A stretch of DNA of 64,000 bases. Source: Thalassotalea psychrophila (GTDB lineage Bacteria > Pseudomonadota > Gammaproteobacteria > Enterobacterales > Alteromonadaceae). The stretch spans positions 3,968,001-4,032,000 of the forward strand of contig NZ_CP134145.1 of assembly GCF_031583595.1 (NCBI RefSeq), read 5' to 3'. The position numbers and the translations under genes were made by a program. The notes under the pieces were generated by a model. That model worked only from the letters and a program-made list of their open reading frames with translations. It was not told the DNA's origin and ran no database searches. The first letter of the stretch is position 1. Every line of letters begins with the position of its first letter. This document shows positions 39,552 through 62,710 of the stretch, one piece after another.

Positions 39552-39588
39552 AATATGTAACGCAATACAAACAAGTTAAAACGGACTT
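39552..39588 (-). promoter_or_regulatory. Direct-repeat operator facing the minus-strand glucan unit
   Basis: Minus strand: AAGTCCGTTTTAAC (39588-39575) is followed 21 bp later by the weaker TTGCGTTACATA. The core TCCGTTTTAAC matches the sites at 39697, 54764 and 62675. It ends about 75 bp from the start of the malectin-GH16 gene. Confidence 0.5.
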
Positions 39589-39696
39589 GGCTTGCGACCA
39601 GAAGTACTAGCCCTAATTTGAATTCGCTTAGAAAGCCAATAATAAGCGACATTTCATAGGCTTAATCATCGCTATAAACAGAGTAAATTTAACCAT

Positions 39697-39732
39697 TTAG
39701 TCCGCTTCAACTTTTCACTAATCCGCTTTACC
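39697..39732 (+). promoter_or_regulatory. Direct-repeat operator facing the GH16 laminarinase gene
   Basis: TTAGTCCGCTTCAAC (39697-39711) and CTAATCCGCTTTACC (39718-39732): the TCCGCTT cores are exactly 21 bp apart in the same orientation. The second site ends 170 bp before the ATG at 39902. The 424-bp divergent region 39478-39901 holds no gene; besides these sites I see only AT-rich DNA. Confidence 0.65.
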
Positions 39733-39901
39733 GTATTTCAATACAATTTAAATTTTTACTGTGCTAACACTAGGCTAAGACATTAATAAATTGTTAATGG
39801 CCGTATTTAGAATATTTAACATTTAAGATGGTTAAAACATAATAATTACCATTTAAATCGTTATTTAAATATGTGGATTTCAACATCTCTGGGGAGAGAA
39901 C

Positions 39902-42634
39902 ATGACTACAATAGGCAGCGCTAAACGTAAGTCACGCGCAATTGCATCTTTAATTGGTATATCAGTAACATTAGGCCTTGCAGGCTGTGATGAAACAAAT
40001 ACCGATACAGATTTTAAATCGATTGATACCAGTGCACCAGTAAGTGATTGGCAAATGGTATGGAGTGATGACTTTGACGGTGATTCGATAGATTCAAGTA
40101 AGTGGTTTCATGAAGTAAATTGTACTGGCGGCGGCAACCAAGAAAAGCAATGTTACACCGACAGTGCTGAAAACTCGTTTGTCGCTGATGGTATGTTAAA
40201 TATTATTGCTAAACCAGCTGAAGAAGATTCACCGCAGCCTTATACCTCAGCAAGATTAAGCACCAAAGGCTTAGGCGACTTTAAATACGGTCGTTTTGAA
40301 ATGCGCGCTAAACTACCATTTGGACAAGGCTCTCACCCAGCATTTTGGATGCTACCTACTGATGACGTTTATGGCGGTTGGCCAAATTCAGGTGAAATTG
40401 ACATTTTAGAAGCAGTTAATTTAAAAACTATTGATGATGAAGGCGTTACTGAGTCAAAGGTAATTGGTACTTTGCACTATGGTAAAGATGCTCCTAATAA
40501 CTCTAAATCGGGTAAAGAATATTTAATGCCAGATGGTGCTAACCCTGCCGATGACTTCCATACCTATGCGATAGAATGGCAAGAAGGTGAAATGCGTTGG
40601 TATGTTGATGGTTATTTATATCAAACACAAATGGCATCACAAGTTCGTTACAACTCTAAAGATCAAGCGGTTGGTTTAACTCATCGCGGTTGGTTTACTG
40701 AATATTTTGATATTATCAGTGGTGACCTAGAAACTCACTGGGATGCATCTCCTTACGATCAAGAATTCCACATGTTACTTAATTTAGCCGTAGGCGGTAC
40801 TTGGGCCGAAAATGTTAATGACGGTGGTATTGATCCAGCAGCGTTTGTTAATGGTCAAACTTATGCAATTGATTATGTTCGTGTATACGAGTGTTCTGTC
40901 GATGTTGAAACAGGCAAAGGTTGTGACACTATTCGCTCTGGTTATAAATCTGAAGAAGATGCATTAGTACTCGGCGCCGCGCCGCTACCTAAGCCACCTT
41001 CAACGGGCATACCTGTAAACTTAACGATTTTTTCAGATACTGAAAATCCTAGCTGGCCAATTTGGGGAGACAATGGTGATATTGATCCAACAATCCAAAC
41101 TGAAGAAGATGAACATGGCGCCGTAGTTGAATTCTCAATTGGCGCAACACCCACTGTAATGGGCTTTAACGTATATGAGTCGGAGTCACCTCTTGGCTTT
41201 GACGCCTCACCCATGGTGAGTGCTGGTAACGTTAGCTTTGACATGAAAGTTGTTTCGCCACCATCTGATGCAAGCGCAACTTGGCACTTTAAAATCGAAT
41301 CTAATGGACAAGGTGGTGAAGAAGCAGAATTTGAATTAAGTGAAGGCAATGAAGGCATAGCTCCTGTAGTTGGCGAATGGCAAACTTATACATTCAGCTT
41401 GCAATCGTTATCTGATGCGGGCCTTGATCTGTCAAATATTGACGTATTAATGATTTTCCCTTCTTGGGGTGCTAGTGCCGGTGCAGTGTATCGCGTTGAT
41501 AACGTGACAATAGCTCAGGAAGGCGGTCCTGGTTTACCTGAATTAGTATTGTTTGAAAATGGTCCACATGCTGAATGGCTACCATCGAATTGTTGTGCTG
41601 GTGATGTACCAAGCGAAGAAACTGATGATGATGAACATGGTAATACCATTGAATTTGTTATTGGTGATACAGATACAGTAGTGGGATTTACACCTAGTGA
41701 TTTAGAAAAGTCGTTTGATGCAACAGCGATAATGTCTGATGGTGTAGTGCAATTTGAGATGAAAATAATTTCTGCGCCAACGGATACAGACGCTGCTTGG
41801 TTTATGAGTATTGAAAGTACTGGTGGTATCGAAAACGGTAACATTGGCGAGAAGGTTGAAATCGCTTTAAATTTGAGTCAAGAAGCTGCCGTTCCAGTTG
41901 TTGGCGAGTGGCAGACCTACACGTATACACTGTCTGAGCTAGTTGCTATTAACCCTGACTTCCTTGTCGATGACATCACAACAGTATGGATATTCCCTAC
42001 ATGGGGAAAAGGAAATGGCGCAGTGTTCCGCATTGATAACGCAAAAATTTACTCTCCAGGTGGAGCAAGTGAGCCAAATGGAGATGATAACTCTTCAACA
42101 CCTGGCTTAACCCTATTTGAAGACGCTACTGCATCAGGTTGGGCGAAGTGGGATTGTTGTAGTGATACCACTCCATCAATTGAGCTTGATGATGACGCGC
42201 ATGGCAATACGGTAGAATTTTCTATGACTGGTAGCACCGCTGAAACTGTTATGGGATTTAATTCTCGTACAAGTGATGGCGGGGCTGGCATTTCTTTTGA
42301 TGCTTCCACTCTAGTAGGCAACGGCGTCATACAATTTGAGATGAAATTGATAACACCAGCAGATGATGGTGACGTAGCTTGGAAATTGAAACTTGAATCT
42401 AATGGTGGCGAGCAAGGTAATCCCGAAAAAGAAAAAGAGTTCGACTTTACCGAAAGCAACGAAGGCGAAGCGCCAGCCCTTGGTGAATGGAAAACATACA
42501 CCTTTAATTTAGCTGATTTATATGCTGAAGGTTTTGATGTAAGCGCCATTGACGTAGTCATGATATTCCCAGCATGGGGTACCGGTGCGGGTGCAGTTTA
42601 TAGAATCGACAACCTAAAAATTGCTAATCCATAG
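39902..42634 (+). CDS. GH16 laminarinase lipoprotein with three C-terminal carbohydrate-binding-like domains
   Basis: 910 aa. Lipobox LGLAGC (Cys29). GH16 domain at about residues 45-335: WQMVWSDDFDGDS, SHPAFWMLP and WPNSGEIDILEAV (Glu165, Asp167, Glu170). A Pro-rich hinge precedes three beta-sandwich repeats of about 170 aa: residues 373-538, 547-724 and 734-910. Each ends in a segment like VLMIFPSWGASAGAVYRVDN; repeats 2 and 3 carry adjacent cysteines (NCC, WDCC). The same domain occurs twice in the protein at 55029. GGGGAGAG precedes the ATG. Likely cuts laminarin at the cell surface. Confidence 0.93.
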   Translation: MTTIGSAKRKSRAIASLIGISVTLGLAGCDETNTDTDFKSIDTSAPVSDWQMVWSDDFDGDSIDSSKWFHEVNCTGGGNQEKQCYTDSAENSFVADGMLNIIAKPAEEDSPQPYTSARLSTKGLGDFKYGRFEMRAKLPFGQGSHPAFWMLPTDDVYGGWPNSGEIDILEAVNLKTIDDEGVTESKVIGTLHYGKDAPNNSKSGKEYLMPDGANPADDFHTYAIEWQEGEMRWYVDGYLYQTQMASQVRYNSKDQAVGLTHRGWFTEYFDIISGDLETHWDASPYDQEFHMLLNLAVGGTWAENVNDGGIDPAAFVNGQTYAIDYVRVYECSVDVETGKGCDTIRSGYKSEEDALVLGAAPLPKPPSTGIPVNLTIFSDTENPSWPIWGDNGDIDPTIQTEEDEHGAVVEFSIGATPTVMGFNVYESESPLGFDASPMVSAGNVSFDMKVVSPPSDASATWHFKIESNGQGGEEAEFELSEGNEGIAPVVGEWQTYTFSLQSLSDAGLDLSNIDVLMIFPSWGASAGAVYRVDNVTIAQEGGPGLPELVLFENGPHAEWLPSNCCAGDVPSEETDDDEHGNTIEFVIGDTDTVVGFTPSDLEKSFDATAIMSDGVVQFEMKIISAPTDTDAAWFMSIESTGGIENGNIGEKVEIALNLSQEAAVPVVGEWQTYTYTLSELVAINPDFLVDDITTVWIFPTWGKGNGAVFRIDNAKIYSPGGASEPNGDDNSSTPGLTLFEDATASGWAKWDCCSDTTPSIELDDDAHGNTVEFSMTGSTAETVMGFNSRTSDGGAGISFDASTLVGNGVIQFEMKLITPADDGDVAWKLKLESNGGEQGNPEKEKEFDFTESNEGEAPALGEWKTYTFNLADLYAEGFDVSAIDVVMIFPAWGTGAGAVYRIDNLKIANP

Positions 42635-42770
42635 CAGCTCAGCTGCCAAGTAAATTAAAAGAATATTAATGTGCAACGTATGACTGACAAACAAAAACGC
42701 CAAATACAAAACAGCTCATACGTTAGCAACACATTGAAAATAAATACTTAAAAAAATAAGTAGGAAAATT

Positions 42771-45746
42771 ATGAAACAAGTTAACTTTAGTAAAAAACGA
42801 CTTGCAGTCGCAATATCTATGTTACTAGGTACAGGTGTAGTAACACCAAGTTATGCTGCAGAAGAAGAAACAACTGCAGCAATTGTTGAAGACGTTCAAG
42901 AACAAGAAATCGAAGTTATTGAAGTATCAGGTATTCGCGGTGCTTTAGTACGATCTATGGACTTAAAACGTGATAGTTCTGGTGTGGTAGATATCATTTC
43001 AGCAGAAGATATGGGTAAGTTCCCAGATACTAACCTTGCAGAATCTCTACAGCGTATTACCGGTGTATCGGTAAGTCGAACAAACGGTGAAGGTAGCCAA
43101 ATAACCGTGCGTGGTTTTGGTCCTCAGTTTAACCTTATCACTTTAAATGGTCGTCAAATGCCAGGGACAGGTAACACTCGTTCTTACAGTTTAGAAAACC
43201 TATCGTCAGATGGTATAACTGAACTTGCCGTTATTAAAACAGCAAGAGCGGAAAACCCTAGTGGTGGCATAGGTGCAATTGTTAATATATCAACAATAAA
43301 GCCATTAAATAGCCCAGGAGAAAAATATACTCTTTCGGCTAAAGCCATGCATGATACATCAAATGAAGAAGGTGATGATGTAACACCTGAATTAAGTGCG
43401 GTGTACAGCAATACGTTTAATGATGAAATGTTTGGTTTCGCTTTATCTGTTAACCATCATCAAAGAGATTTTCAGCAACAATCTGCAAACATTCAAGGCT
43501 GGCAAGCAAACGTAGCTTTACCCGATTTAAATGCTGAAGATGTAGTTGATGCCAGACCTGTCGATATGGCAGGTAACCCTATCGGGCCTCATTTTTTTCC
43601 TCGCGACATGAATTACGGCTTTGCTGATACAGAGCGTGAAAGAACTAACGGCTACGTTACCTTTCAATATGCACCTACAGATGATTTGGTTTTAACATTT
43701 GATTATACCGCCACAAAAGCGATTACGGCCACTAACTCACTTGGTTGGGGCATGTGGAACGATTATGGCGGCAACATTAATAGTTATGAGTTGGATGAGA
43801 ATGGTACCGCCATTTATGCCGATATTAGTGGTAACGATGCTTCTTTTACCTCATCAAGAGGTACAACCGAAGTAGAAGAAGAGTCTTTAGGCTTTAACTT
43901 AGAATGGCAAGCCACAGAAACATTACACTTCGAGCTGGATTATCACAACTCAAGCAATAAAATTGATAATGGCGCTGATGATGGTTTAGGTAGTGTGGGC
44001 TCGTTAGTACTAGGCTCAGATCAGCTTAATACTAAAATATATGATTACCGCACTGGTGAAATTCCTCATTCTCAAATTTTTTGGAAAAATGGTACAAACA
44101 CCTTAGATCCTAGTGAAATTGACTCTCACTTTAGCCAATTTGTGCATTCGCCTGGTGAATCAGAAGTAGATCAAATACAAATCCATGGTACATGGGAAAA
44201 TTATGAGTTTGATATTCCATTAGTCAATGTGAAGTTTGGTATTGCAAGAACTGAGCAAGAAATAGGTGGCTCGAATGCATGGAGTGGCTTGATTGGTGGC
44301 TTCGGGTTCAATCCAAATTACACAGCAATGTTGCCTGATGGTATGTTTAATTACCATACTACTGGTGGCTTCTTAGATCAGTTTAGTGGTGGCGGTAGTG
44401 ATATTGGTTATTACTATACGTTCGACTTTGACGAAGTTGCGGCTCGCTCTGCAGCATTTTTGACTAATGAAGAGCTCGGTGGCAATGATTATTTTGAAGC
44501 CACTGCCTACCACGATATGGGCACATATGGACAAGGTGCAGTTGAAGAAGAGACCAATAGTGCTTACGTGCAATCGCAATGGGAATTTGAACTGTATGAA
44601 ATTCCTGTGCAGGTAAACGTTGGTGTTCGATATGAAGAAACTGAAGTTACCAGTATCGTATTGCAAGATGTACCAACTTCCGTTTGGTGGAAAGGTGGTA
44701 GTGAGTGGCATACACAATACCTTGATGGTGATAGCAACTTATACAAAGATACGGGTGAACACGATGTGTTTTTACCTATGCTAGATATTAAAGTAGATAT
44801 CACCGATGAACTTGTTGGACGTGTTTCCTGGGGTCAAACAATAGCTAGAGCACCTCTTGGTAGCCTTGCTGGGGGTTTAACTTTATCTGGCAGTCCAAAA
44901 GTTGGCTCTCGTAACGGTGGTTCAGGTAATACCAATTTACAACCATATGAATCGACAAACTTGGATTTAAGCATTGAATATTATTACGCTGAAGGTAGTT
45001 ATGCACAAATAGGATACTTTAAAAAAGAAGTTGAAAATTTCATTGGTAACCAAATTAACTCGCAAACAATCGATGGTTTCAATGATATTTATCAAGGGCC
45101 TCGCTGGCAACAAGCGGAAGCTGATTTAGTTGCCAATGGTATACAACCAACCAATGACGCTATTTTTCAGCAAATTCAAGACAATGGTTCGGCTTTAAAT
45201 GAGCAAGGTTATCTTGTACCAAATGCAGATGATCCGTTAATACTTTGGGATATTTCACAACCATTTAATAATTCAGAAGAAAAAGAAGTCGACGGTTTTG
45301 AACTTGCCGTTCAACACTTATTTGGTGAAACCGGATTTGGTGTTGGCGCAAATGCTACCTTCGTTGATGGTGATGTAGAATTTGATATTGATAGCCTAGA
45401 TCAGCAATCGCCTCTTGCAGGTTTAAGTGACTCAGCTAACTTTCAAGTATTTTATGAAAAATATGGCTTGTCGGTAAAATTTACCTATGCATGGCGTGAT
45501 GAGTATCTTATTGGTGTTGGGCAATCTCAAGGTTCTTCTGATAACCCACCACAATTTGCTAAAGAATTTGGCCAATTGGATATGAGCATTAACTATGACA
45601 TCAATGAACGCTTTACGGTGTTCTTTGATGGCCTTAACTTAAATGATGAAACTGAGCAATCTTTTGGTCGTTACGAAGAGCAATTCTTAAGTGCTCGTCA
45701 ATATGGTCCTAGATACACTTTAGGTGCTCGTTATAGCTTTAAATAA
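42771..45746 (+). CDS. TonB-dependent receptor (outer-membrane glycan transporter, TIGR01782-like)
   Basis: 991 aa. Signal peptide to about residue 30 (cleavage near SYAAEE). A short acidic linker with EVIEVSGIRGAL (TonB box-like), plug domain (MGKFPDTNLAESLQRITGVS, ITVRGFGPQFNLITLNGRQM), then a 22-strand barrel ending YGPRYTLGARYSFK with a terminal aromatic. Strong Asn/Gly/aromatic loops fit oligosaccharide uptake. It follows the GH16 laminarinase by 136 bp with only a weak hairpin between, so co-transcription is likely. Role by context: import of laminarin oligosaccharides. Confidence 0.93.
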   Translation: MKQVNFSKKRLAVAISMLLGTGVVTPSYAAEEETTAAIVEDVQEQEIEVIEVSGIRGALVRSMDLKRDSSGVVDIISAEDMGKFPDTNLAESLQRITGVSVSRTNGEGSQITVRGFGPQFNLITLNGRQMPGTGNTRSYSLENLSSDGITELAVIKTARAENPSGGIGAIVNISTIKPLNSPGEKYTLSAKAMHDTSNEEGDDVTPELSAVYSNTFNDEMFGFALSVNHHQRDFQQQSANIQGWQANVALPDLNAEDVVDARPVDMAGNPIGPHFFPRDMNYGFADTERERTNGYVTFQYAPTDDLVLTFDYTATKAITATNSLGWGMWNDYGGNINSYELDENGTAIYADISGNDASFTSSRGTTEVEEESLGFNLEWQATETLHFELDYHNSSNKIDNGADDGLGSVGSLVLGSDQLNTKIYDYRTGEIPHSQIFWKNGTNTLDPSEIDSHFSQFVHSPGESEVDQIQIHGTWENYEFDIPLVNVKFGIARTEQEIGGSNAWSGLIGGFGFNPNYTAMLPDGMFNYHTTGGFLDQFSGGGSDIGYYYTFDFDEVAARSAAFLTNEELGGNDYFEATAYHDMGTYGQGAVEEETNSAYVQSQWEFELYEIPVQVNVGVRYEETEVTSIVLQDVPTSVWWKGGSEWHTQYLDGDSNLYKDTGEHDVFLPMLDIKVDITDELVGRVSWGQTIARAPLGSLAGGLTLSGSPKVGSRNGGSGNTNLQPYESTNLDLSIEYYYAEGSYAQIGYFKKEVENFIGNQINSQTIDGFNDIYQGPRWQQAEADLVANGIQPTNDAIFQQIQDNGSALNEQGYLVPNADDPLILWDISQPFNNSEEKEVDGFELAVQHLFGETGFGVGANATFVDGDVEFDIDSLDQQSPLAGLSDSANFQVFYEKYGLSVKFTYAWRDEYLIGVGQSQGSSDNPPQFAKEFGQLDMSINYDINERFTVFFDGLNLNDETEQSFGRYEEQFLSARQYGPRYTLGARYSFK

Positions 45747-45785
45747 CAGTACTTTAAAAAGCTAAGCAGTTTTAGTTTGTACCAT

Positions 45786-51618: not shown

Positions 51619-54600
51619 TTATAGTGAGTTTAAAAAGCTCCGCAAAGCATCTTTCTCGGCTGTGCTAAGTTGTTGATATTTCACTTTAGAAGCTTGCGAT
51701 TCACCGCCATGCCAAAGAATTGCTTCCTCTATACTGCGAGCGCGACCGTCATGCAAATAGCTGTGCACCGGAGTACACTCTTCATTGCCTTGCCCGCCAA
51801 TGGGGTTAATTACTCCACCGGTAACACACGCAGATAAACCTATACCCCATAATGGAGTTGTGCGCCACTCAGCACCTGTTGCTAAGCCTTCGCCCAGGTT
51901 ATCGGCCAAGCCTTCGCCCATGTCATGTAATAACATGTCAGTGTAAGGATGAATTGTTTGCCCCACCAACTCAGTTAATGGATGATGTTCACTGGTTGTC
52001 ATTGTGTCAGTATGACAATCATTACAACCAATCGTTGTGAATAGTGCTTGTCCATTTTGCACTTGTGCATCATCCAAACCTCGTTGCGCTCTTACCCCTA
52101 ATAAAGAGATGTACTTAACTAGATTATCTAAATGTTGGTCAGCTAACTCAATAGTGTTTACGCCACACTCGCCTCTAGATTGCTGGTTTACTCCACAGTC
52201 TGGGTTAGAAAGAACACTGGTCATCACCCCCATATCGGTATTAAGCGCGCCGGCAGTTTGATGTTTAACGCTAGATGTTGCCGCTTTCCAGCCGAATCGC
52301 CCCAAACGAGTTTGTCCGGTTACTGGGTCTGTCACTTTTTGTGCTTTACCGGAAATACCAAACGGCGCAACTTCATCATTGACATCTGCAAGGGCCAAAA
52401 TTTGTTCTTCTGGTATTGCTTCTAACAGACCTAGGCCAACTAACTGCGGCGCAATACGAGCAGAAAACTTGGCTGGTGTACCGGTTGAAAATTGATAATT
52501 TGGTGAACGCAAACCATTTGATTCGGTCCAGGCTGCTAATGAGACCGTACCCTCGCCTTGCACACTCCCCGTATTAGTTGGTTGTAATACACTACCCCGT
52601 TCAGCATCTGGTTCACCATTGCTATCAGCAATTTTAAATACCCACTTATCAAGATTTACACCAATTTCAGCAGGTGCTGCGCGGCCGTTTCGTTCATGAC
52701 AATTCGAACAACTATCGTTAACAAAATGAGTGCCTGCTTTACCACTCAATTCAGCAAAGGTACCGTTAGCTGGGTCTTCATCATGTTGACCATCAACAAA
52801 TGAAGTATGTAAAACACGACGGCCGAGTACAAATGGTTGACCATTAACGCTAGATAAATTGGTGGCCATTTGCATAAAGTGATCGTTTGGCTCATTGGTG
52901 TATTGATAAGGTAAAGTCGTATTGCCACCTAACCAACCGCTTTGTTCAATAGGATGAGAGTTTTCACGTTCAGTCGATTTAATTGCAAAGTCACCCACGG
53001 CTTTCCAAGGAACCATGCCGCCTTTACCAACTTGATACAGATAAGTTGTGCCGTAATAGTTAGTTCGACCTTCAGGTACACCATCAAGAAATTGGCTTAC
53101 TTCAATTTCCATGTGTTGGCCTATGGCCAATGGCGAAACACTGCCATTTAAAGCTCTATAATCATTAATGGTGAGAGAGTATTTGTATTGGTCTCCTGAT
53201 GTACTGGTTTGCTCTAGATCATTGTCATAAGTACCATGGCCTTCGACCACTACTTCAGGTTCATAATTACCGTGGTATTCAGCAACGGTATTCATACCTG
53301 AATACCAAGCTCTAAATTCTAACGCTTGTAGTTTCCACTCTGACACCCACTCTACTTTAATACTTGAGCCGCCTTTGGCAACATAATCGGTAAATTTAAA
53401 ACGCGCGGTACGATGGGTCCAATAATGTGAAAGGTAATGATCATATTGTTGAAAATGATCTTCTTTGGCGTGACGATCTCGACCTCTATCGGCAAATTTA
53501 GTAATAATAGCTTCATTGGTCTCATAAATAATTGCCGGCTCTTGCTCGGTAGTGGCATTATATAAAGGTACGATATCGCCAAGAGATACATCGACGCCAT
53601 AAGGTTGAACATCCCAACCTTCTATATTACTGCCGTTGGTATCGCCAATGGCTGCATCATTAATAAAGTAATATAATGGTCTACCTTTGTATGCCGCTTG
53701 CAAAGTGCCATCATCACGTACAACTGTTGTTAAATTTATTACTCCATTAGCCACTTCATCGGTAACCAACAATGGTGGCCAATTAACCGCACAGCCTCCG
53801 TTACAAGTGCTTCCAGTCTGCTCCAAATCATTATCAAATACATAGAGTGTAAACCCTTGGTTTGGTGCATCTTTACCTGCAATTAAGATTTCATTAGCAA
53901 CATCAACTTCTATTAACTTACTAGGTTCTTCCACCACAATGGCACAACCAGTTGCATCAACCTCGACAGACGGTTCTGTATCTGGGCAAACATCTACAGT
54001 ATCTAATATCCCATCGTCATCAGTATCAACTGGATCACTATTAACGGGCTGTACATCCCAGCCATTCACCCGACTACCATTTGACTCACCAATAGCCGCA
54101 TCATTAATAAAGAAATATAGTGGTCTACCGTTATAAGCAACCTGAAAAGTACCGTCATTACGTGCCACGGAAGTTAAATTCTCTATCCCGGAAGCCAATT
54201 CATCTGTTACCAATAATGGTGGCCAGTTAACCGCACAGCCATCAATACAACTACTTCCTGATATATTTAAATCATTGTCAAACACGTATAAGGTAAAGCC
54301 AGGGTTTGCTGAATCTTTACCGGCAACTAAAATATCATTAGAAATATCAACTTCGGTTAATCCACTTGCGATTTCCACAATGATAGCGCAGCCTGTTTCA
54401 TCTACTTCGTCGCTTTCGTTTGAATCAAGGCAACTATCAACAGAATCAAAAACGCCATCATTATCTAAATCTAGTTCTTCAGTTTCAGTATTATCTTCTT
54501 CTGTAGAGTTATCTTGCTCATCTGTAGGTGTAGTATTTTCGACCGGAGGAGTATTCTCAATTTCAGCTTTATCACTGCCCCCACCTCCACATGCCGTTAA

Positions 54601-54684
54601 TAGGGAAAATAAAAATATGACAAAGCAATGCTTGAAGTTAAAACTTATGTTTTTAGGTAATTTATAAATTTGCAGTAAGTTCAA
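51619..54684 (-). CDS. Multidomain di-heme oxidoreductase lipoprotein (DHOR type) with two COG4315-like repeats
   Basis: 1021 aa. Lipobox LLTACGGG, an acidic Thr/Glu linker, then two copies of a COG4315/Lipoprotein_15-type repeat (GFTLYVFDNDL...CAVNWPPLLV...GRPLYFFINDAAIG), each preceded by a calcium-binding DxDxDG segment (DLDNDGVFDSVDSC, DTDDDGILDTVDVC). A middle domain of unknown type (about 370-560) leads to the DHOR catalytic part with heme motifs CSNCH (near 658) and CNDCH (near 886). Outer-membrane anchored electron-transfer or peroxidase-like protein. Its promoter region carries the clearest direct-repeat pair. Confidence 0.85.
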   Translation of the reverse strand: MNLLQIYKLPKNISFNFKHCFVIFLFSLLTACGGGGSDKAEIENTPPVENTTPTDEQDNSTEEDNTETEELDLDNDGVFDSVDSCLDSNESDEVDETGCAIIVEIASGLTEVDISNDILVAGKDSANPGFTLYVFDNDLNISGSSCIDGCAVNWPPLLVTDELASGIENLTSVARNDGTFQVAYNGRPLYFFINDAAIGESNGSRVNGWDVQPVNSDPVDTDDDGILDTVDVCPDTEPSVEVDATGCAIVVEEPSKLIEVDVANEILIAGKDAPNQGFTLYVFDNDLEQTGSTCNGGCAVNWPPLLVTDEVANGVINLTTVVRDDGTLQAAYKGRPLYYFINDAAIGDTNGSNIEGWDVQPYGVDVSLGDIVPLYNATTEQEPAIIYETNEAIITKFADRGRDRHAKEDHFQQYDHYLSHYWTHRTARFKFTDYVAKGGSSIKVEWVSEWKLQALEFRAWYSGMNTVAEYHGNYEPEVVVEGHGTYDNDLEQTSTSGDQYKYSLTINDYRALNGSVSPLAIGQHMEIEVSQFLDGVPEGRTNYYGTTYLYQVGKGGMVPWKAVGDFAIKSTERENSHPIEQSGWLGGNTTLPYQYTNEPNDHFMQMATNLSSVNGQPFVLGRRVLHTSFVDGQHDEDPANGTFAELSGKAGTHFVNDSCSNCHERNGRAAPAEIGVNLDKWVFKIADSNGEPDAERGSVLQPTNTGSVQGEGTVSLAAWTESNGLRSPNYQFSTGTPAKFSARIAPQLVGLGLLEAIPEEQILALADVNDEVAPFGISGKAQKVTDPVTGQTRLGRFGWKAATSSVKHQTAGALNTDMGVMTSVLSNPDCGVNQQSRGECGVNTIELADQHLDNLVKYISLLGVRAQRGLDDAQVQNGQALFTTIGCNDCHTDTMTTSEHHPLTELVGQTIHPYTDMLLHDMGEGLADNLGEGLATGAEWRTTPLWGIGLSACVTGGVINPIGGQGNEECTPVHSYLHDGRARSIEEAILWHGGESQASKVKYQQLSTAEKDALRSFLNSL

Positions 54685-54763: not shown

Positions 54764-54799
54764 GGCAAAACGGACTACCAATGAGGTAAAACGGAAACC
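54764..54799 (-). promoter_or_regulatory. Direct-repeat operator facing the di-heme gene
   Basis: Minus strand: GGTTTCCGTTTTACC (54799-54785) and GGTAGTCCGTTTTGCC (54779-54764). The TCCGTTTT cores are exactly 21 bp apart. The pair ends 80 bp upstream of the ATG at 54684. The 344-bp divergent region 54685-55028 also has a weaker pair facing the other way and no gene. Confidence 0.65.
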
Positions 54800-54884: not shown

Positions 54885-54921
54885 TTTTCCACTTCACCGT
54901 GCCTGCAATACCCCTTCATCG
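54885..54921 (+). promoter_or_regulatory. Weaker direct-repeat pair facing the 1635-aa lipoprotein gene
   Basis: TTTTCCACTTCACCG (54885-54899) and AATACCCCTTCATCG (54907-54921), 22 bp apart, match the same consensus with one or two substitutions each. It ends 107 bp before the ATG. Confidence 0.4.
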
Positions 54922-55028
54922 CTTTAGCATTGCCTCTTAAAAATGTTTGTTACATGGTCATATTGCATATTTTTATTCTTATAAATTAAACAAACAAAAC
55001 GTATATAAATAAATCGGTGGGGAAAGAA

Positions 55029-58000
55029 ATGACTTTAGTAACCAAGAAAGTCCATCTTAGAAAAACATTGCTGACGGCGAGCTTAGCTTTAGCCTTAACA
55101 GCGTGTGATGGAGATAGTTCGTCTAATGATGTAGAAGTATTAGATGACCTAACTGTAGCTACAAATAGCGCACCTACAATCCATAGTAGCGCTGCATTAA
55201 CAGTTGCAGCAGGCCAAATGTATACCTATGAATTTGTAGCAGACGATCCTGATGCAAGTGATACGGTTCATATCTCCGCCGAAACATTGCCAAGTTGGCT
55301 GAGTTTTGAAGCAGCTACTGGTTTGCTAACGGGTACACCTGGAAATTCTGACGCTGGCGAGCACACAATTGTTTTAGCAGTAAGCGATGGTACTGATGTA
55401 GTGAAACAAACATTCACTATAACCGTAACCATGCCTCCTATTGTTATTACCGGTAGTGTTATTACTAATGCTACCGCTGATATTGAATATAGCTACACCT
55501 TAGCTGCTACTCATGATGATGATGCAGCATTAACATTTTCTGCAACAGTATTACCTGTTTGGTTATCATTTGATGGCACTACAGGTATTTTATCTGGTAC
55601 GCCAACGGCAGAAGATGTAGGTGAGCATACGGTTACGTTAATGGTTAGTGATGGTGGTGCTGATATTGTTAAAACATTTACTATTACAGTCTCTCTAGTT
55701 CCGGTAGAACTTGCTCCTCCAGGTTATATTTTTTATTCAGACAATGATGACTCTTTCCCTATCCAATATTGGGGAGATACTTGGGGTTCAGACACCGTAT
55801 ATACTGACCAATCTACCGATACGACTTACCCTAAAACATTAGAAATTTCAAAAAGTACTGGCTGGGGAACTGTTGTGGCTTGGGGCAATGACCCTGAGAA
55901 TGCAATTGATATTTCAGCATATAGTAGTGCTAAATTTAAAGTTAAAACGGATACCTTTACTTCTGTTGAAGTTCTTGTTCAAAGTGTAACACTGCCAGAA
56001 TCTAAGGAAGTTTATAACCTTGCATCAGGAGTAGATTTAGGTAATGGCTGGGTGGAATTGGAGGTTACCTTACCTGGTTTTACTGACATGACATGGTTTG
56101 CTCTTAACTTTATTGGCGATTCAGGTACTACTGTTTTCTTAGCTGATGTGTATTTCGGTACATTAGATGCAGAGCCACCTGTTGACCCAGTTGACCCAGT
56201 TGATCCTGTTGACCCAGTTGATCCTGTTGGTCCTGTTGACCCAGTGGATCCAGTTGATCCTGTTGTTCCGGTTGAATCAGTGGTTAATGCTGGTTTTGAT
56301 GGTGGTGACACTGATTGGGTTATGCCGGCTTCTGGTTCTATTATCTCCGAAAGTGACAATAACGTTTTCCAAGCTATGGTTGACACAGCCGGTAATGTTT
56401 GGGACGTTAACTTAAGCCAAGTGATGACGCTTGTGGCAGGTCAACCTTATACGCTTACCTTTAAAGCAAAAGCAGATGTTGTTCGTACTATTGTTGCTGG
56501 TCTTGGTTTTAACCATGATCCTTGGACAGCGACTACCGAAGATGTAACATTAACAACAGATTGGGTTACTTACACTTATACCATTACGCCTGAAGTTGGT
56601 GATGATAATAGCCGAGTACTATTTGATATGGGCGGGGAAGCTGGAAATGTTTACCTCGACGATATCAGTGTAGTAGCAGTAGGTGAAGAACCACCTGTTG
56701 AACCGCCGGTTGAACCACCTGTTGAACCTCCTGTTGAACCTCGTACCCCTGGTGAATCAGGAGATGGTGCTACAACTACCACCACTCTGGGCGTTGATTT
56801 TGAAGGACCACAACTAACTTGGGGATCTTTTGATACTGCTAAGGTGCAATATGTTGCTAACCCAGATACCAACGGGATCAACACTTCAAATACCTCTGCT
56901 TTGTTCGATATTCATCAAGGTGACGGCGAGTGGATTGGCGCAAGAACCGAAGGTATCGATAATTTCGCTTTAGAGTTAGCAAATTGTGTTGTGAAGGTCG
57001 ATGTTTACAAAGACACCATTAGTGCCGTTGATGTGAAATTTGAAAAACAACATGGTGATGGCTGGGGCTCTCATGGCTCAATATCTGCTACCAATACAGT
57101 AGTGAACCAATGGGAGACATTAACGTTTGATTTCTGTCACATGATTGGTCTACCTGAAAATGACGATATTGGTGGTTTTGCTATCTTTCCAGATAGAACG
57201 AATGCTAGAAGCCAAAATACATTGAACTACGTTGATAACATTACTTTCACCGACGGTGTTTCTGAACCGCCAGTGGAGCCGCCGGTTGAACCGCCAGTTG
57301 AGCCTGGTGCTGAATTAGTGATTAATGCTGGTTTCGATGATGCCGCAAGTTGGGTTATGCCGGGTACAGGTGCGATTATCGCCGAAGGTGACAATAACGT
57401 TTTCCAAGCTACTGTTGATACAGCAGGTAATGTTTGGGACGTTAACTTAAGCCAAGTGATGACACTTGAAGCAGGGCAAGCTTATACGTTAACGTTTAAA
57501 GCTAAAGCAGATGTAGCTCGTACAATTGTTGCAGGCCTTGGTATTAACCATGATCCGTGGACGGCAACGACTGAGGTAGTAACATTAACAACCGATTGGG
57601 TTACTTACACTTATACCATCACGCCTGAAGCTGGTGATGATAATAGCCGAGTACTATTTGATATGGGTGGCGAAGCTGGTAATGTCTACCTGGACGATAT
57701 TAGTGTAGTAGCAGTAGGCGAAGAACCTCCTGTTGAACCACCAGTTGAGCCACCTGTTGAACCACCTGTGGCAGACTTAGTAATATTTGCCGATAATATT
57801 CTTGAAAGCTGGCCTGTATGGGATTGTTGTGGTGGCTCTACGCCAACGCTAGTTGATGCCGGCGGTACCAATGGTAATGCCGTAGAATTCAGCATAGGTG
57901 TAGCTCCTACTGTTATGGGCTTTATTTCCCGTGCAGTTGATGGCGCAATTAATCCAATGCAGTATGATGCAACATCGATTACGGAAACAGGTACGGTTTC

Positions 58001-59936
58001 ATTTGACTTAAAAATGACTGCATCTCCTGGTGATACAGCTTGGCAATTAAAACTTGAAAGTGATGGCGGCGCTACATTTGCACAAGTTCCTTTATCAAGT
58101 AGTAATGAAGCTCATGCAGCGCCATTATTAGACACTTGGCAAACCTATACGTTTAAAATTGCAGATCTTGCGACTGCGGGCTTAGACGTAACTAAAATTG
58201 ATGTACTTATGGTATTCCCTGATTGGGGTACTGGTGAAGGTGCCGTGTACTTAATCGATAATGTGCGTTTTTCAGCTAGCGAAGAACCGCCTGTTGAACC
58301 ACCAGTAGATTCACAAATTGATCACCCATTAAACTTTGAAGCTTTGGATGTTGATTACACCCTAACCGACTTTGGTGGTAATACCTCAACATTAGCTGCC
58401 GATCCGGCAGGAGTTCATGGCACTGTTACTATGTCAGTTAAATCTGATTCTGCAGAATTATGGGCTGGTACTACTATGGGAACTGATTCTGGATTTGCAA
58501 CAGCAATTTCAATTAATCCGTCTAACACCACGAATACCATGAAAGTTTGGGTATATTCTCCAGATGCAGGTATACCGGTACGTTTGAAAATTGAAGATCA
58601 TAACGATAATACTCATACCGTTGAAACTGAAACTGTAACAACAGTTGCCAACACATGGGAAGAGCTTACTTTTGATTTCAATACTGAAGCGCCAGGGACA
58701 GAGCCTTTAATTCATGCCGACTGGGTATTTGATAAAGCTTCTATCTTCTTTAATTTCGGTACTGACGGTGCAACCGCTGGTGAGAAAACTTACTACTGGG
58801 ATGAAGTTAGCGTAGTAACATCTGGTGAGCCACCAGTAGAGCCTCCAGTTGAACCGCCTGTTGAGCCACAACCTGATGAGATTGTTATCTTCGATGAAAC
58901 CAATCGTACTGACTGGTTAGCATGGGATTGTTGTACGGGTTCTACCCCTGCAATAGCTGTTGATGACGTTGACCACGCTAATACTATGGAATTTAGTATC
59001 GGTGGCGCTACGGTAATGGGCTTTAGTGCTCGAGCAGATCATGGTGCAGTTGGTGGCATGCCATTTAACGCCAGTCCAATTACTGCCGATGGCGTGCTTA
59101 GCTTTGATTTAAAAATGACTGCATCACCTGGTGATACTGCATGGATGCTTAAAGTAGAGAGTAATAATGGTGCGAGTTTTGCCGAAGTTAATTTATCAAC
59201 GAGTCAAGAAGGTCATTCAGCGCCTATATTAGACACGTGGCAAACCTATACCTTTAACCTTGCCGATTTAGCAACAGCTGGCCTTGACACAAGTGCTATC
59301 GATGTTGTTATGGTATTCCCAGCATGGGGAACTGGCACTGGTGCGGTATATCGTATTGATAACATGGCTATTTTAAATAGTGGCAATGACGCGACACCGC
59401 CACCACCGCCAGCTTCGGGAAGCCAAATTGATTATCCATTAAACTTTGAAGCTTTGGATGTTAATTACACCCTAACTGACTTTGGTGGTACTACCTCAAC
59501 ATTAGTAGCCGATCCTGCTGGTACTCATGGCACTGTTGCTATGTCTGTTAAATCTAATACTGCCGCATTATGGGCTGGTACTACGATGGGAACTGATTCT
59601 GGATTTGCAACGCTACTTCCAATCAATCCTTCTAACACCACCAATACCATGAAAGTTTGGGTTTATTCTCCAGATGCTGGTATAGCAGTTCGGTTGAAAA
59701 TTGAAGATAGTAACGATGTTACTCATACCGTTGAAACAGAAACGTTAACCACAGTTGCAAATACTTGGGAAGAATTAACCTTTAACTTCAACAATGAAGC
59801 AACAGGTACAGAGCCTTTAATTCATGCCGACTGGGTATTTAATAAAGCTTCTATATTCTTTAACTTCGGCACCGATGGTGCAACCGCTGGTGAGAAAACT
59901 TACTACTGGGATGAAGTGAGCGTAGTAGTAAACTAA
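55029..59936 (+). CDS. Giant non-catalytic lipoprotein with two Ig-like and seven carbohydrate-binding-like domains
   Basis: 1635 aa from ATG at 55029, chosen because GGGGAAAG precedes it (a GTG 12 bp up is possible). Lipobox LALTAC. Domains by nucleotide: two cadherin/He_PIG-like domains (55164-55440, 55450-55695); an ExoP-like sandwich (55720-56170, GWGTVVAWG); Val-Asp-Pro linker; CBM4/9-like (56278-56690); an unassigned sandwich (56780-57262); second CBM4/9-like (57310-57718); two WDCC domains (57772-58275, 58875-59382) alternating with two NFEALDV domains (58318-58822, 59424-59933). PPVEP linkers separate them. I see no catalytic residues of any glycosidase. Inferred surface glycan-binding role. 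Confidence 0.85.
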   Translation: MTLVTKKVHLRKTLLTASLALALTACDGDSSSNDVEVLDDLTVATNSAPTIHSSAALTVAAGQMYTYEFVADDPDASDTVHISAETLPSWLSFEAATGLLTGTPGNSDAGEHTIVLAVSDGTDVVKQTFTITVTMPPIVITGSVITNATADIEYSYTLAATHDDDAALTFSATVLPVWLSFDGTTGILSGTPTAEDVGEHTVTLMVSDGGADIVKTFTITVSLVPVELAPPGYIFYSDNDDSFPIQYWGDTWGSDTVYTDQSTDTTYPKTLEISKSTGWGTVVAWGNDPENAIDISAYSSAKFKVKTDTFTSVEVLVQSVTLPESKEVYNLASGVDLGNGWVELEVTLPGFTDMTWFALNFIGDSGTTVFLADVYFGTLDAEPPVDPVDPVDPVDPVDPVGPVDPVDPVDPVVPVESVVNAGFDGGDTDWVMPASGSIISESDNNVFQAMVDTAGNVWDVNLSQVMTLVAGQPYTLTFKAKADVVRTIVAGLGFNHDPWTATTEDVTLTTDWVTYTYTITPEVGDDNSRVLFDMGGEAGNVYLDDISVVAVGEEPPVEPPVEPPVEPPVEPRTPGESGDGATTTTTLGVDFEGPQLTWGSFDTAKVQYVANPDTNGINTSNTSALFDIHQGDGEWIGARTEGIDNFALELANCVVKVDVYKDTISAVDVKFEKQHGDGWGSHGSISATNTVVNQWETLTFDFCHMIGLPENDDIGGFAIFPDRTNARSQNTLNYVDNITFTDGVSEPPVEPPVEPPVEPGAELVINAGFDDAASWVMPGTGAIIAEGDNNVFQATVDTAGNVWDVNLSQVMTLEAGQAYTLTFKAKADVARTIVAGLGINHDPWTATTEVVTLTTDWVTYTYTITPEAGDDNSRVLFDMGGEAGNVYLDDISVVAVGEEPPVEPPVEPPVEPPVADLVIFADNILESWPVWDCCGGSTPTLVDAGGTNGNAVEFSIGVAPTVMGFISRAVDGAINPMQYDATSITETGTVSFDLKMTASPGDTAWQLKLESDGGATFAQVPLSSSNEAHAAPLLDTWQTYTFKIADLATAGLDVTKIDVLMVFPDWGTGEGAVYLIDNVRFSASEEPPVEPPVDSQIDHPLNFEALDVDYTLTDFGGNTSTLAADPAGVHGTVTMSVKSDSAELWAGTTMGTDSGFATAISINPSNTTNTMKVWVYSPDAGIPVRLKIEDHNDNTHTVETETVTTVANTWEELTFDFNTEAPGTEPLIHADWVFDKASIFFNFGTDGATAGEKTYYWDEVSVVTSGEPPVEPPVEPPVEPQPDEIVIFDETNRTDWLAWDCCTGSTPAIAVDDVDHANTMEFSIGGATVMGFSARADHGAVGGMPFNASPITADGVLSFDLKMTASPGDTAWMLKVESNNGASFAEVNLSTSQEGHSAPILDTWQTYTFNLADLATAGLDTSAIDVVMVFPAWGTGTGAVYRIDNMAILNSGNDATPPPPPASGSQIDYPLNFEALDVNYTLTDFGGTTSTLVADPAGTHGTVAMSVKSNTAALWAGTTMGTDSGFATLLPINPSNTTNTMKVWVYSPDAGIAVRLKIEDSNDVTHTVETETLTTVANTWEELTFNFNNEATGTEPLIHADWVFNKASIFFNFGTDGATAGEKTYYWDEVSVVVN
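56290..57717 (+). repeat. Duplicated CBM4/9-like module inside the giant lipoprotein
   Basis: The segments around 56290-56690 and 57316-57717 are nearly identical in protein and largely in DNA, e.g. both contain GTTTGGGACGTTAACTTAAG. The unassigned sandwich domain sits between them. Confidence 0.8.
57772..59935 (+). repeat. Duplicated WDCC-plus-NFEALDV two-domain unit
   Basis: The unit 57772-58822 recurs at 58875-59933. The second halves are close at DNA level, e.g. AACTTTGAAGCTTTGGATGT at both 58332 and 59441 regions, indicating a recent tandem duplication. Confidence 0.8.
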
Positions 59937-59967
59937 CCCTCAAACTTTAAAAGTTGAGTATAAATAG

Positions 59968-60000: not shown

Positions 60001-60152
60001 ACATCAGGGAAGATGGAATGCAAATCGCCATGGATGGCACTAGATTTGTAACATCAGGGAAGATGGAATGCAAACCGCCATGGGCCGTTCATTCACATCC
60101 GTGTGTTCACGGAAAATACAACTTCCTTGTTGAAAACGGTACTAGATTTGTA
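60001..60152 (+). repeat. Intergenic repeat element, copy A (short unit plus full unit)
   Basis: A short unit (60001-60050) and a full unit (60051-60152) both start ACATCAGGGAAGATGGAATG and end TAGATTTGTA. The full unit has an internal region with CCGTTC...ACGG and ACTTCCTTGTTGAAAACGG. A related element lies at 62522-62672. The copy abuts the T run of the preceding terminator. The 405-bp gap 59937-60341 otherwise holds operators only. Confidence 0.8.
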
Positions 60153-60196
60153 ATACGTATAAAAAAACATTCTCCACAATCTACCAAAAAACGACA

Positions 60197-60233
60197 GTGT
60201 CCATTTTAACTCACACTACCCCCCTCCTTAACG
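60197..60233 (+). promoter_or_regulatory. Weak direct-repeat pair facing the 695-aa lipoprotein gene
   Basis: GTGTCCATTTTAACT (60197-60211) and CCCTCCTTAACG (60222-60233), 22 bp apart, resemble the consensus; the second is poor. It ends 108 bp before the ATG, similar to the other promoters. Confidence 0.3.
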
Positions 60234-60247
60234 CATTTCTATTGATT

Positions 60248-60269
60248 AACTTAACAATCAAGTTAAGTT
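60248..60269. promoter_or_regulatory. Inverted repeat upstream of the 695-aa lipoprotein gene
   Basis: AACTTAAC-N6-GTTAAGTT, a perfect 8-bp dyad 72 bp before the ATG. It could be an operator for a dimeric repressor; no T run follows. Confidence 0.4.
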
Positions 60270-60341
60270 GGTATAAGCGCTTTTATATGGCCATAACGAA
60301 TTCAACAATAACTAATTCAACAAAAAAGATGACATTTACTT

Positions 60342-62429
60342 ATGATGAATATTAATTTTAAATTATCACTGCTTTTAGCCAGTTTAACTCTGGCTGGTTG
60401 TGGTGCTGATACTCCGTATGGGGATGTAAAAAAAACACCGGCTGATAGTACGCCGGTTGATAATGCCCCCATTGATAATACTCCTGTTGATAATACGCCG
60501 ATCAATAATGCGCCGACAATTACGAGTACAGCCAATGAAAATATTTCAGTAGGCGGAGCTTACAGCTACACTGTAACAACAAGTGATTCTGAAAATGATT
60601 TGTTGGCTGTTAGTGCTACAACATTACCGGTTTGGTTAAGTTTTGATAATATTACAGGCTTACTTTCTGGTACCCCTACAATTGACGATTTGGGTGAGAG
60701 TAGTGTTGTTATTACGGTAAATGATGGTGAATTTGAAACGAGCCAGTCATTTACCATTACCGTCGTTGATGAAGTTGAGCCACCAGTAGAACCGCCGGTT
60801 GAACCACCAGTAGAGCCGCCAGTAGAACCGCCGGTAGAGCCGCCGGTTGAGCCACCGGTAGAGCCACCGGTTGAACCAACAGGTGATTCGTTTTACTTTA
60901 TCTCCAGTACAGAGACTAGCGATGTTAACTTTGATGAAACGTTGATCAATGAATGGAGTACCGGCTCTCAAATAGCTGGTGATATCATTTATAATGACAT
61001 CACAAGTTGGGAAATATCCTCAGGTAGCAACTCACCTGAGGCTGGAAACTGGGGAACTGTGTTAGCGTTTGACGGCGGTATTAATGGCGACCTTAGTCTA
61101 TTCACTACTTTGCAGCTTAACCTTGCCACAACCGGTGGCTATTCTAGCTATGAAGTTGCGATTGGTGCAAATGGTGTGGTTTCAAAAGTAATCGTACCTG
61201 TTGATGACAGCAACCCTGACTGGCAAAATGTTAGCGTTGACTTGTTCGATTTTGCTTTAAACCTTTCTGCCATTGACCAAATTGCTGTCTATGGTATCGG
61301 CGGCACACCTGCTGTATCTAAAATCTATATTGCAAATTTGGCCATCTACGCTGATAAAAGCATTAGTATCGATAGCGACCTTGAAAACGACTTCGTCTTT
61401 ATCTCTTCTAGCGAGAGCGTTGTCAGCGATTTAATTGTTGATGATGACAACAATAGTGCCGTGGGTAATGTTATTTTTGGTGAATGGAGCACAGGTACTC
61501 AGATAGGTAATACTACTTATGATAATTTAAATGCTGTTGAGCTTACCGCTGGTGGTAGCTGGGGTGCTGTTCTGGCACTGCAAGGCGATATATCTGATGG
61601 TACAAACATCGATAATTATGATGTTGATCTAGCAAAATATACCAACATTAAATTTAAAGTCGCTTCATCTGGTGCTTTTGACCGATATGCAGTATCTATT
61701 GTATCAACAATTGGCGGAGCAAACCCGGCACAGGAGGTTGGTTTTGGATTAGCTGAACAAGCAGAGTGGAATGATATTGATATTAATTTACAGCAGTATG
61801 GCGTGAACTTATCTAACGTTAGTCAAATTGCGGTATTTGGCGTATACACAGATGGAGTGTCGTCAAATCAAAAATTATATATTACTGATATGACCATGTA
61901 TGACAACGGCACTAATCCAGCGGCCAAACCAAGCACAGATGATAAATTCGTACTTCTTACTTCTTCTAATGAAGATGTAGACTTACGCGTTGATGATAAT
62001 AACTTGGTAAACGAAGGCAATATCACCTTTAGCGATTGGTCTACCGGCTCAACGCTTGCCGGGGACGTTCTTTATGACGGCCTAAATGCTTTTGAAGTAA
62101 CAAAAGGAGCTGGCTGGGGCACAGTATTGGCCTTAATGGGTGATATTTATGGTGGCGTGCAAACTTATGAAATTGACGTGGCTAAATATCAAACCATTAA
62201 CTTCAAAGTGGCTGCCACAGGTTCTATGAACGCATTTACAGTAGACTTCATTGTTGATGGCGCCGAGCATAAAGTACCGTTAACTGTTTCAAGTGCTTGG
62301 TCTGAAGTAAGCATAAACATCGCGGATATACCGTTGAACATGACTAAATTAACTCAAATAGCAATATTTGGAGAAGGCGGTAATGCTGGTGATAAATTGT
62401 ATGTTACTGATTTAAACATATCAAAATAG
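60342..62429 (+). CDS. Non-catalytic lipoprotein with one Ig-like domain and three ExoP-like carbohydrate-binding domains
   Basis: 695 aa. Lipobox LTLAGC (Cys20; either of the first two ATGs may be used). A short Asp-Asn-Thr-Pro-Val/Ile linker, a cadherin/He_PIG-like domain (about residues 50-148, LPVWLSFDNITGLLSGTPT), a PPVEP linker, and three sandwich repeats of about 165 aa (about 183-345, 348-520, 533-695). Each has a W-G-x-V-L-A core: NWGTVLAF, SWGAVLAL, GWGTVLAL. The same domain type occurs once in the 1635-aa protein. No catalytic motif seen. Likely a second surface glycan-binding protein. Confidence 0.85.
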   Translation: MMNINFKLSLLLASLTLAGCGADTPYGDVKKTPADSTPVDNAPIDNTPVDNTPINNAPTITSTANENISVGGAYSYTVTTSDSENDLLAVSATTLPVWLSFDNITGLLSGTPTIDDLGESSVVITVNDGEFETSQSFTITVVDEVEPPVEPPVEPPVEPPVEPPVEPPVEPPVEPPVEPTGDSFYFISSTETSDVNFDETLINEWSTGSQIAGDIIYNDITSWEISSGSNSPEAGNWGTVLAFDGGINGDLSLFTTLQLNLATTGGYSSYEVAIGANGVVSKVIVPVDDSNPDWQNVSVDLFDFALNLSAIDQIAVYGIGGTPAVSKIYIANLAIYADKSISIDSDLENDFVFISSSESVVSDLIVDDDNNSAVGNVIFGEWSTGTQIGNTTYDNLNAVELTAGGSWGAVLALQGDISDGTNIDNYDVDLAKYTNIKFKVASSGAFDRYAVSIVSTIGGANPAQEVGFGLAEQAEWNDIDINLQQYGVNLSNVSQIAVFGVYTDGVSSNQKLYITDMTMYDNGTNPAAKPSTDDKFVLLTSSNEDVDLRVDDNNLVNEGNITFSDWSTGSTLAGDVLYDGLNAFEVTKGAGWGTVLALMGDIYGGVQTYEIDVAKYQTINFKVAATGSMNAFTVDFIVDGAEHKVPLTVSSAWSEVSINIADIPLNMTKLTQIAIFGEGGNAGDKLYVTDLNISK

Positions 62430-62493
62430 CATTGCCACAAGTTTACTTAACTGTAATAAAGTTAATCGAATTTAGTTCAAAATAGCATTAATG

Positions 62494-62521
62494 AAAGTCC
62501 AGCTGCCGCTGGACTTTTTTT
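62494..62521 (+). terminator. Terminator of the 695-aa lipoprotein gene
   Basis: AAAGTCCAGC-TGCC-GCTGGACTTT followed by TTTT, 64 bp after the stop codon. Confidence 0.92.
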
Positions 62522-62672
62522 ACATCAAGGATGAGGGAATGCAAATCGCCATGGACCGTTCCTACGCATCCATGCGTTTACGGCATACACAACTTCCTTG
62601 TTGAAAACGGCAATAGATTTGTAAATTAAGGATGAAGGAATGCAAATTTCCAGGGAGGGCTTTAAATTTGTA
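62522..62672 (+). repeat. Intergenic repeat element, copy B (full unit plus short unit)
   Basis: Full unit 62522-62624 starts ACATCAAGGATGAGGGAATG and contains ACAACTTCCTTGTTGAAAAC as in copy A; a short unit follows (to about 62672). The hairpin ACGCAT-CC-ATGCGT here replaces CACA-N4-TGTG of copy A, so the fold rather than the bases is conserved. As in copy A it directly follows a terminator T run. The rest of the 381-bp gap to the GH30 gene holds only the operator pair. Confidence 0.8.
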
Positions 62673-62674
62673 AT

Positions 62675-62710
62675 TTATCCGCCTTACCGCTGCAAGAATC
62701 CACTTTAGCG
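62675..62710 (+). promoter_or_regulatory. Direct-repeat operator facing the GH30 gene
   Basis: TTATCCGCCTTACCG (62675-62689) and GAATCCACTTTAGCG (62696-62710), cores exactly 21 bp apart. It ends 100 bp before the ATG at 62811. The first site closely matches CTAATCCGCTTTACC upstream of the GH16 laminarinase. Confidence 0.6.

Follow-up and report, generated by a model that had tools for sequence, protein, structure and literature searches.

A beta-glucan locus of Thalassotalea psychrophila carries, before its promoters, a paired DNA element that most probably serves as the operator of one activator regulon for beta-1,3-glucan (laminarin-type) use, under the control of a LytS/LytTR system encoded at 30487-32469. 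The locus spans from 30.5 kb to past 62.7 kb of the analysed window, a stretch of 64,000 nucleotides (C1:3968001-4032000) of the 4.81-Mb, single-contig genome G000. Each element consists of two 11-bp boxes near TCCRYTTTAMC, which point in the same direction, and is found before six promoters of the window and two others just beyond its end. The period is 21 bp (10-bp gap) at five promoters and 22 bp (11-bp gap) at three. These pairs and their spacing, as well as their fixed distance to the promoter, their conservation, the gene content and the co-occurrence described below, were computed directly.

The original prediction, made from the letters of the window alone, had placed such tandem repeats before six start codons and joined six transcription units into a regulon. 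Using a matrix learned without its motif, exactly six window sites reach at least 22 bits, and these are the six in question; the next-best scores are 14.2 (other registers of two of the six), 13.3 and 13.1 within genes, and 11.2 in an intergenic region (60007-60039). The shared operator therefore holds, although it links eight units rather than six. The three pairs described as clear (GH16, di-haem lipoprotein and GH30) lie where they had been placed, with a 21-bp period, and the weaker pairs of the two other lipoproteins are real, with a 22-bp period. For the malectin-GH16 unit, a pair does exist, but its register had been set one box off (39552-39588): the first box proposed is box 2, box 1 being TACTTCTGGTC at 39596-39606, and the second box proposed overlaps the -35 region. 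The spacing values of 21 and 22 bp were also right, but they are two fixed spacings and not a loose range. Among intergenic sites above 20 bits scored at spacings of 16-27 bp in 61 stretches, 119 fall at 21 bp, 8 at 22 bp, and 0-3 at each other value, and the 22-bp period of both lipoprotein pairs is retained in the orthologue promoters of a relative (G224). As had been remarked, no pair precedes the TonB receptor, GH-A or phosphorylase genes (best scores 0.1 or less); the receptor and the phosphorylase are downstream genes of units whose first promoter has one.

The matrix was obtained by a zero-or-one-site motif search, unseeded by the earlier motif, using 250 random 33-mers from 185 regions upstream of glucan-labelled genes in this locus and 40 stretches from relatives. 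All six refined runs converged on one motif in shifted frames (TCC.ttTtA.Cgca.....AGTCCgttTTA.CttaTTT..aTTG). Of 360 upstream regions, 197 are labelled and 163 unlabelled; 77 of the former and 19 of the latter have sites above 12 bits, compared with 6 and 3 in reversed sequence. The reverse-complement count (68/197) is unusable as a negative control, since a single region can serve two divergent promoters. In 46 stretches totalling 911 kb, 41 of which had served as training data, sites above 20 bits number 92 in 146 kb of intergenic DNA and none in 765 kb of coding DNA; twenty column-permuted matrices average 0.0 and 0.1 sites. With the frozen matrix, 15 loci unseen in training yield 27 intergenic sites and one coding site above 20 bits (0.1 in all for permuted matrices). 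All but one of the 15 contain an intergenic site scoring over 17 bits, the exception being G225 (best 15.3). Twenty stretches sampled at even spacing across G000 (400 kb in all) contain no site above 20 bits, and their four sites above 13 bits (best 18.3) all fall within open reading frames (ORFs). Across the relatives, nearly all sites above 20 bits are thus intergenic, and pairs are conserved at orthologous promoters.

Genome-wide coverage relied on pattern scans and on these stretches. The 21-bp pattern, allowing up to 3 mismatches, has 3 matches in the window, against 0 in each of 100 shuffles, and 4 in the whole genome: the three clear pairs and one within an ORF (at most 8.5 bits). Among the 9 genome matches of the 22-bp pattern, the three 22-bp sites of G000 rank best (1 mismatch). 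One further genome pattern was too strict, recovering one of the five 21-bp sites.

The position of the pairs is locked to the promoter. Counting from the start of box 2, TTG occurs at exactly +20 in 34 of 66 non-redundant sites (0 and 2 at the adjoining offsets) and TAnnnT at exactly +42 in 29 of 66 (0 and 5); the next-highest counts over +12 to +64 are 13 for each, at +15 and +16, respectively. In 31 unseen sites (near-copies kept), the counts are 12 for TTG and 16 for TAnnnT, the next highest being 8 and 7. These elements correspond to the -35 and -10 of the predicted promoters, separated by a 16-bp spacer, and their bases had no part in site choice, because the scoring matrix ends at +11. 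Measured from the end of the 9-mer TCCRYTTTA, the distance to TTG is 11 bp in the same 34 of 66 sites and 12 of 31 unseen sites. The pairs of G000, with their promoters and genes, are listed in Table 1.

Table 1. Genes and operator pairs of the locus (window positions, unless prefixed by the genome and contig; pair scores from the matrix)
Feature	Position	Strand	Evidence and details
LytTR response regulator (receiver and LytTR domain), predicted binder	30487..31320	-	Pfam Response_reg 83.8 bits, LytTR 67.8 bits
LytS-type histidine kinase	31354..32469	-	Pfam His_kinase PF06580 and HATPase_c
Two GH17 ORFs (33585-34472, 32603-33748)	32603..34472	-	Pfam Glyco_hydro_17
GH149 beta-1,3-glucan phosphorylase	34526..37972	-	NCBIfam GH149 1762.5 bits; PDB 6hq6 1133.8 bits
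Malectin-GH16, first gene of leftward unit	38056..39477	-	Pfam
Operator pair, malectin-GH16 unit	39575-39606	-	29.2 bits, 21-bp period; TTG 39565-39563, TATTGT 39543-39538; register fixed by relatives
Operator pair, GH16-TonB receptor unit	39701-39732	+	29.3 bits, 21-bp period, 1 mismatch; no TTG, TGTGCTAACAC in -10 area
GH16 laminarinase-like protein, rightward unit with TonB receptor	39902..42634	+	Pfam Glyco_hydro_16
TonB-dependent receptor	42771..45746	+	Pfam; no pair of its own (best score -18.2)
Di-haem oxidoreductase-like lipoprotein	51619..54684	-	Pfam DHOR 228 bits, Lipoprotein_15 118.4 bits
Operator pair, di-haem lipoprotein	54764-54795	-	34.1 bits, 21-bp period; TTG 54754-54752, TATTGT 54732-54727
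Operator pair, long lipoprotein	54888-54920	+	23.1 bits, 22-bp period; TTG 54930-54932
Long lipoprotein, 1639 aa counted from GTG start	55017..59936	+	ORF; no NCBIfam match
Operator pair, 695-aa lipoprotein	60200-60232	+	22.4 bits, 22-bp period; TTG 60242-60244
695-aa lipoprotein	60342..62429	+	ORF; He_PIG Ig domain
Operator pair, GH30 gene	62678-62709	+	29.7 bits, 21-bp period; TTG 62719-62721
GH30-type glucanase gene, continues beyond window end	62790..64000	+	ORF in L035
Operator pair, GPH-type transporter, beyond window	G000:C1:4039402-4039434	-	16.0 bits, 22-bp period
Operator pair, GH3-GH3-GH16, beyond window	G000:C1:4039492-4039523	+	31.9 bits, 21-bp period

By their core, geometry and promoter distance, the pairs are predicted to be LytTR-type operators. 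In published LytTR sites, 11-13 bp separate two repeats that are each 9-11 nt long (PMC4847170), a geometry that includes the recurrence of TCCRYTTTA after 12 or 13 bp. In LytTR Regulatory Systems, repeats such as ACCACTTAT-12 bp-ACCGCTTAT show a strong bias to a position 10 bp before the -35 (PMC6193735), compared with 11 bp here, and most LytTR regulators bind upstream of the -35 and activate (PMC11347149). A LytTR-type operator linking the glucan genes, as originally predicted, is thus supported by geometry, core, conservation, promoter placement and the co-occurrence of regulator and gene set.

Several known systems resemble this one in part. BtsS/BtsR and YpdA/YpdB of Escherichia coli likewise combine a LytS-type kinase with a LytTR regulator, and YpdB occupies two tandem repeats of the yhjX promoter sequentially, its targets being transport proteins (PMC4847170, PMC5552118). 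Nevertheless, these systems sense pyruvate and are described as targeting a transporter gene, whereas eight units encoding glucan enzymes, a receptor and lipoproteins are concerned here; against the BtsR model (NCBIfam NF008677), the 30487 protein reaches 152.7 bits, short of the cut-off of 246, which places it outside the BtsR equivalogues as that model defines them. HdrRM and BrsRM of Streptococcus mutans also use direct repeats just upstream of the -35, with autoregulation (PMC6193735), but their regulator is paired with a membrane inhibitor instead of a kinase, and the genes that they govern are those for bacteriocins and competence. In Staphylococcus aureus, AgrA is a LytTR activator with direct repeats immediately upstream of promoters, the proximal ones centred near -60 (PMC4227749); it serves quorum sensing at two promoters, unlike the nutrient use and many-unit glycan regulon proposed here. 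In a Roseburia arabinoxylan locus, a LytTR response regulator and a kinase lie beside a polysaccharide locus, as in the window (PMC5320581), so that such a neighbourhood is not new as such. The passages on that locus list the presence of the LytTR regulator and give no operator or regulon. No regulon of the present kind appeared among the best-ranked hits of the open-licence literature searched; the protein and operator types are already known.

As regulator of these operators, the LytS/LytTR pair at 30487-32469 stands out as the best candidate, because regulator and GH149 gene co-occur and because LytTR-paralogue loci lack the motif; binding by the 30487 protein, which we infer, is a case that genomics strengthens. 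Of the 15 genomes of the genus, 8 encode a near-full-length regulator orthologue, and the same 8 have the GH149 gene. In the family, 39 of 40 genomes sorted as regulator-less (of 241 such) lack the GH149 gene, and the fortieth, G009, turned out to have both, with a 61% regulator orthologue, the kinase, the GH149 gene and pairs. A family-wide pattern scan, partly circular because its pattern was derived from such loci, gives a match in 25 of 55 regulator-bearing and 53 of 240 regulator-less genomes (P 7e-4), which is weak alone. Once the 34 of 86 matches sharing a recurrent k-mer are dropped (it lies inside an ORF in the single case examined, L149), the counts become 22/55 and 25/240 (P 9e-7). 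Regulator-bearing genomes then retain 27 matches, 22 of them no farther than 40 kb from the regulator gene. The 55 include G225, whose 45% protein falls outside the 56-member regulator clade in the tree; this clade has a node support of 0.23 and contains no genus paralogue.

The same regulon could have another binder, for example a BtsR-like LytTR paralogue (G000:C1:2453267) or an AraC-type activator, which we consider unlikely. AraC-type activators also use tandem sites about 21 bp apart, and the paralogue, present in all 15 genus genomes, shares most strongly conserved LytTR-domain residues, so its target sequence could be alike. However, 17 paralogue loci, together with the 20-kb stretches around two of them, contain no site above 14.3 bits, and genomes that encode the glucan regulator have the k-mer-free matches given above more often than those that do not. 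As for AraC, the regulators found by Pfam among 17 window ORFs are of the LytTR, LysR and MerR types, with no AraC there (the scan covered these ORFs alone, and AraC genes elsewhere in G000 were not looked for).

Under control by the LytS/LytTR system, the membrane kinase would respond to a sign of glucan availability and phosphorylate the response regulator. Two regulator molecules would then occupy the two direct repeats, on one helix face and separated by two turns, immediately before a sigma-70-type promoter. The predicted transcription start lies about 54 nt from the first base of box 2, with box 2 centred near -49 and box 1 near -70; the bound regulator would contact RNA polymerase at the -35 and recruit it. 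The 21/22-bp rule and the fixed distance to the -35 point to such activation. The opposite sign, in which the same regulator binds the pairs but represses until a signal lifts the repression, is improbable, and more so than another binder. A LytTR repressor, CoxC, does exist, with an operator overlapping the -35 (PMC11347149), but the repeats end here 11 bp before TTG, where published LytTR activators bind. With activation, induction would probably raise the regulator too, since its genes follow malectin-GH16, GH149 and GH17 on the same strand, and read-through from the glucan genes would create a positive feedback. Such read-through is suggested by the same-strand order, by gaps of 33-133 bp in the leftward unit, and by the absence of any terminator-like site from the 133 bp that precede the kinase gene. 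The signal might, speculatively, be a transport-linked or intracellular sugar, as a sugar transporter gene is divergent from the kinase gene in several relatives.

Several observations weigh against this reading. In G000, neither the kinase gene nor the regulator gene is preceded by a pair, so that feedback hinges on read-through. The exact TTG or TAnnnT is missing from about half of the sites, and the GH16-receptor promoters form a second type, without TTG and with TGTGyTA.A (recognised by eye) in the -10 area. Much of the motif evidence is drawn from loci chosen for encoding the regulator, and pattern matches also occur in regulator-less genomes (25/240 without the recurrent k-mer and 53/240 with it). 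Backwards controls of the pattern scans give 4 genome matches for the 21-bp pattern, as many as forward, and 12 against 9 for the 22-bp pattern; mismatch count alone is therefore no proof. Finally, in the genome G294 (78% complete), the regulator (57%) has no adjacent kinase gene, LacI-type palindromes stand in the GH16, TonB-receptor and phosphorylase promoter regions, and the contig concerned has no LytTR-type pair above 17 bits with a 21-bp period. The backwards controls are what would favour chance similarity or a spreading repeat element without regulatory role, but this explanation, to which we give next to no credence, is rejected on intergenic placement, fixed spacing, promoter lock and absence from 400 kb of G000, and is largely contradicted by the recovery of the pairs in unseen loci.

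LacI-type regulators of glycan loci have the same kind of target genes as here, but their operators are palindromic, unlike the direct repeats of this locus. LacI-type control of the window genes is rejected for G000, as palindromes near TTGGRAGCGCTYCCAA are absent from its glucan region and, with 1 mismatch allowed, from the whole genome. In G294, palindromes near TTGGAAGCGCTTCCAA are located near positions 2030, 2131, 11743, 16780, 16822, 17103 and 17167 of L085 (G294:C278); LacI-type palindromes were counted at 6 places on one G294 contig and at 1 place in one other of the 15 genus genomes. The GPH-type transporter and the unit with GH30 of G294 retain LytTR-type pairs (17.9 and 27.3 bits), which suggests either that regulators were partly exchanged or that the assembly is mixed.

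By gene content, the co-location of GH16, GH17, beta-1,3-glucan phosphorylase and TonB receptor genes marks a predicted beta-1,3-glucan utilisation locus. The leftward unit runs from malectin-GH16 through the GH149 phosphorylase and the two GH17 ORFs to the LytS-type kinase and the LytTR regulator. GH17 is likewise present as two ORFs in many relatives, and the true start of the second one (32603-33748) is probably later than listed. Both domains of the regulator, the LytTR one being C-terminal, score above the Pfam cut-off, and its phosphorylation-site residues (D10, D11, D56, T83 and K103) are invariant across 14 aligned regulators. Hydropathy indicates three hydrophobic segments within the first 100 residues of the kinase, which has no recognised sensor domain. 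The GH30-type gene scores 180.6 bits on an endo-1,6-beta-glucanase model, below that model's cut-off of 700. Beyond the window end come the GPH-type transporter gene and then GH3-GH3-GH16, the GH3 and GH16 having been assigned by eye from translations. The di-haem oxidoreductase-like lipoprotein (51619-54684), a cytochrome-like protein, shares the glucan operator. A short intergenic repeat (GGATGAGGGAATGCAAATCGCCATGGA-like) occurs in similar copies close to two operators, at 60007-60089 and about 62520-62660.

In relatives, 19 pair-bearing ORFs lie beyond the query set. Of the 12 looked up, 11 resemble carbohydrate genes or encode a putative chemoreceptor: five are Sugar_tr transporters, three CBM9 proteins, two weakly GH-like TIM-barrel proteins and one the chemoreceptor, the last of the 12 being a phosphatase; four further ORFs in those look-ups carry no pair. 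The chemoreceptor, of the methyl-accepting type (L044:3157-5067), is encoded beside the kinase region and has a pair of 20.1 bits, which suggests that chemotaxis belongs to the regulon in some relatives. In G224 (L088), a promoter nearly identical to the GH30 promoter of the window precedes a phosphatase-like gene (4558-5070, minus strand), and no GH30 was found in the stretch; GH30 was perhaps lost and its promoter kept. G237 has a C-terminal remnant of the regulator (L086, G237:C53, about 10124-10471; 142 matched residues, 81-83% identity) and no GH149 gene. The remnant adjoins an amidohydrolase gene that is also present in the window, and its 20-kb stretch is devoid of glucan genes, an apparent loss of the glucan locus. 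Distant LytS/LytTR pairs, with 42% and 52% identity, neighbour GH16/TonB-receptor genes in a Gammaproteobacteria metagenome-assembled genome (MAG; L165) and TonB-receptor/GH3 genes in a SAR92 MAG (L159), respectively; neither has an operator pair above 17 bits with composition-adjusted scoring, and fixed scoring gives one in L159.

It is about an even call whether the LytS/LytTR system is a general master activator of beta-1,3-glucan use across the family (probably Alteromonadaceae). Such a system would use a strict two-spacing code (mainly 21 bp, the GPH-type transporter and the two large lipoproteins having 22 bp) and have its own genes in the regulon. It would include the chemoreceptor, CBM9 proteins and kinase-adjacent sugar transporter of relatives, with a partial LacI-type takeover in one lineage.

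Laminarin is a main carbon store of marine algae, and the best-ranked hits of the open-licence literature searched name no regulator that governs its use in these bacteria. One predicted activator with a readable operator would provide, for many species together, a list of genes, maps of promoters and a target for knock-out. It would also link lipoproteins that lack annotation, and a di-haem peroxidase-like protein, to glucan use through their promoters and not by proximity alone. With a paired tag at a fixed distance before promoters, the control of this major source of food in the ocean can be tested directly.

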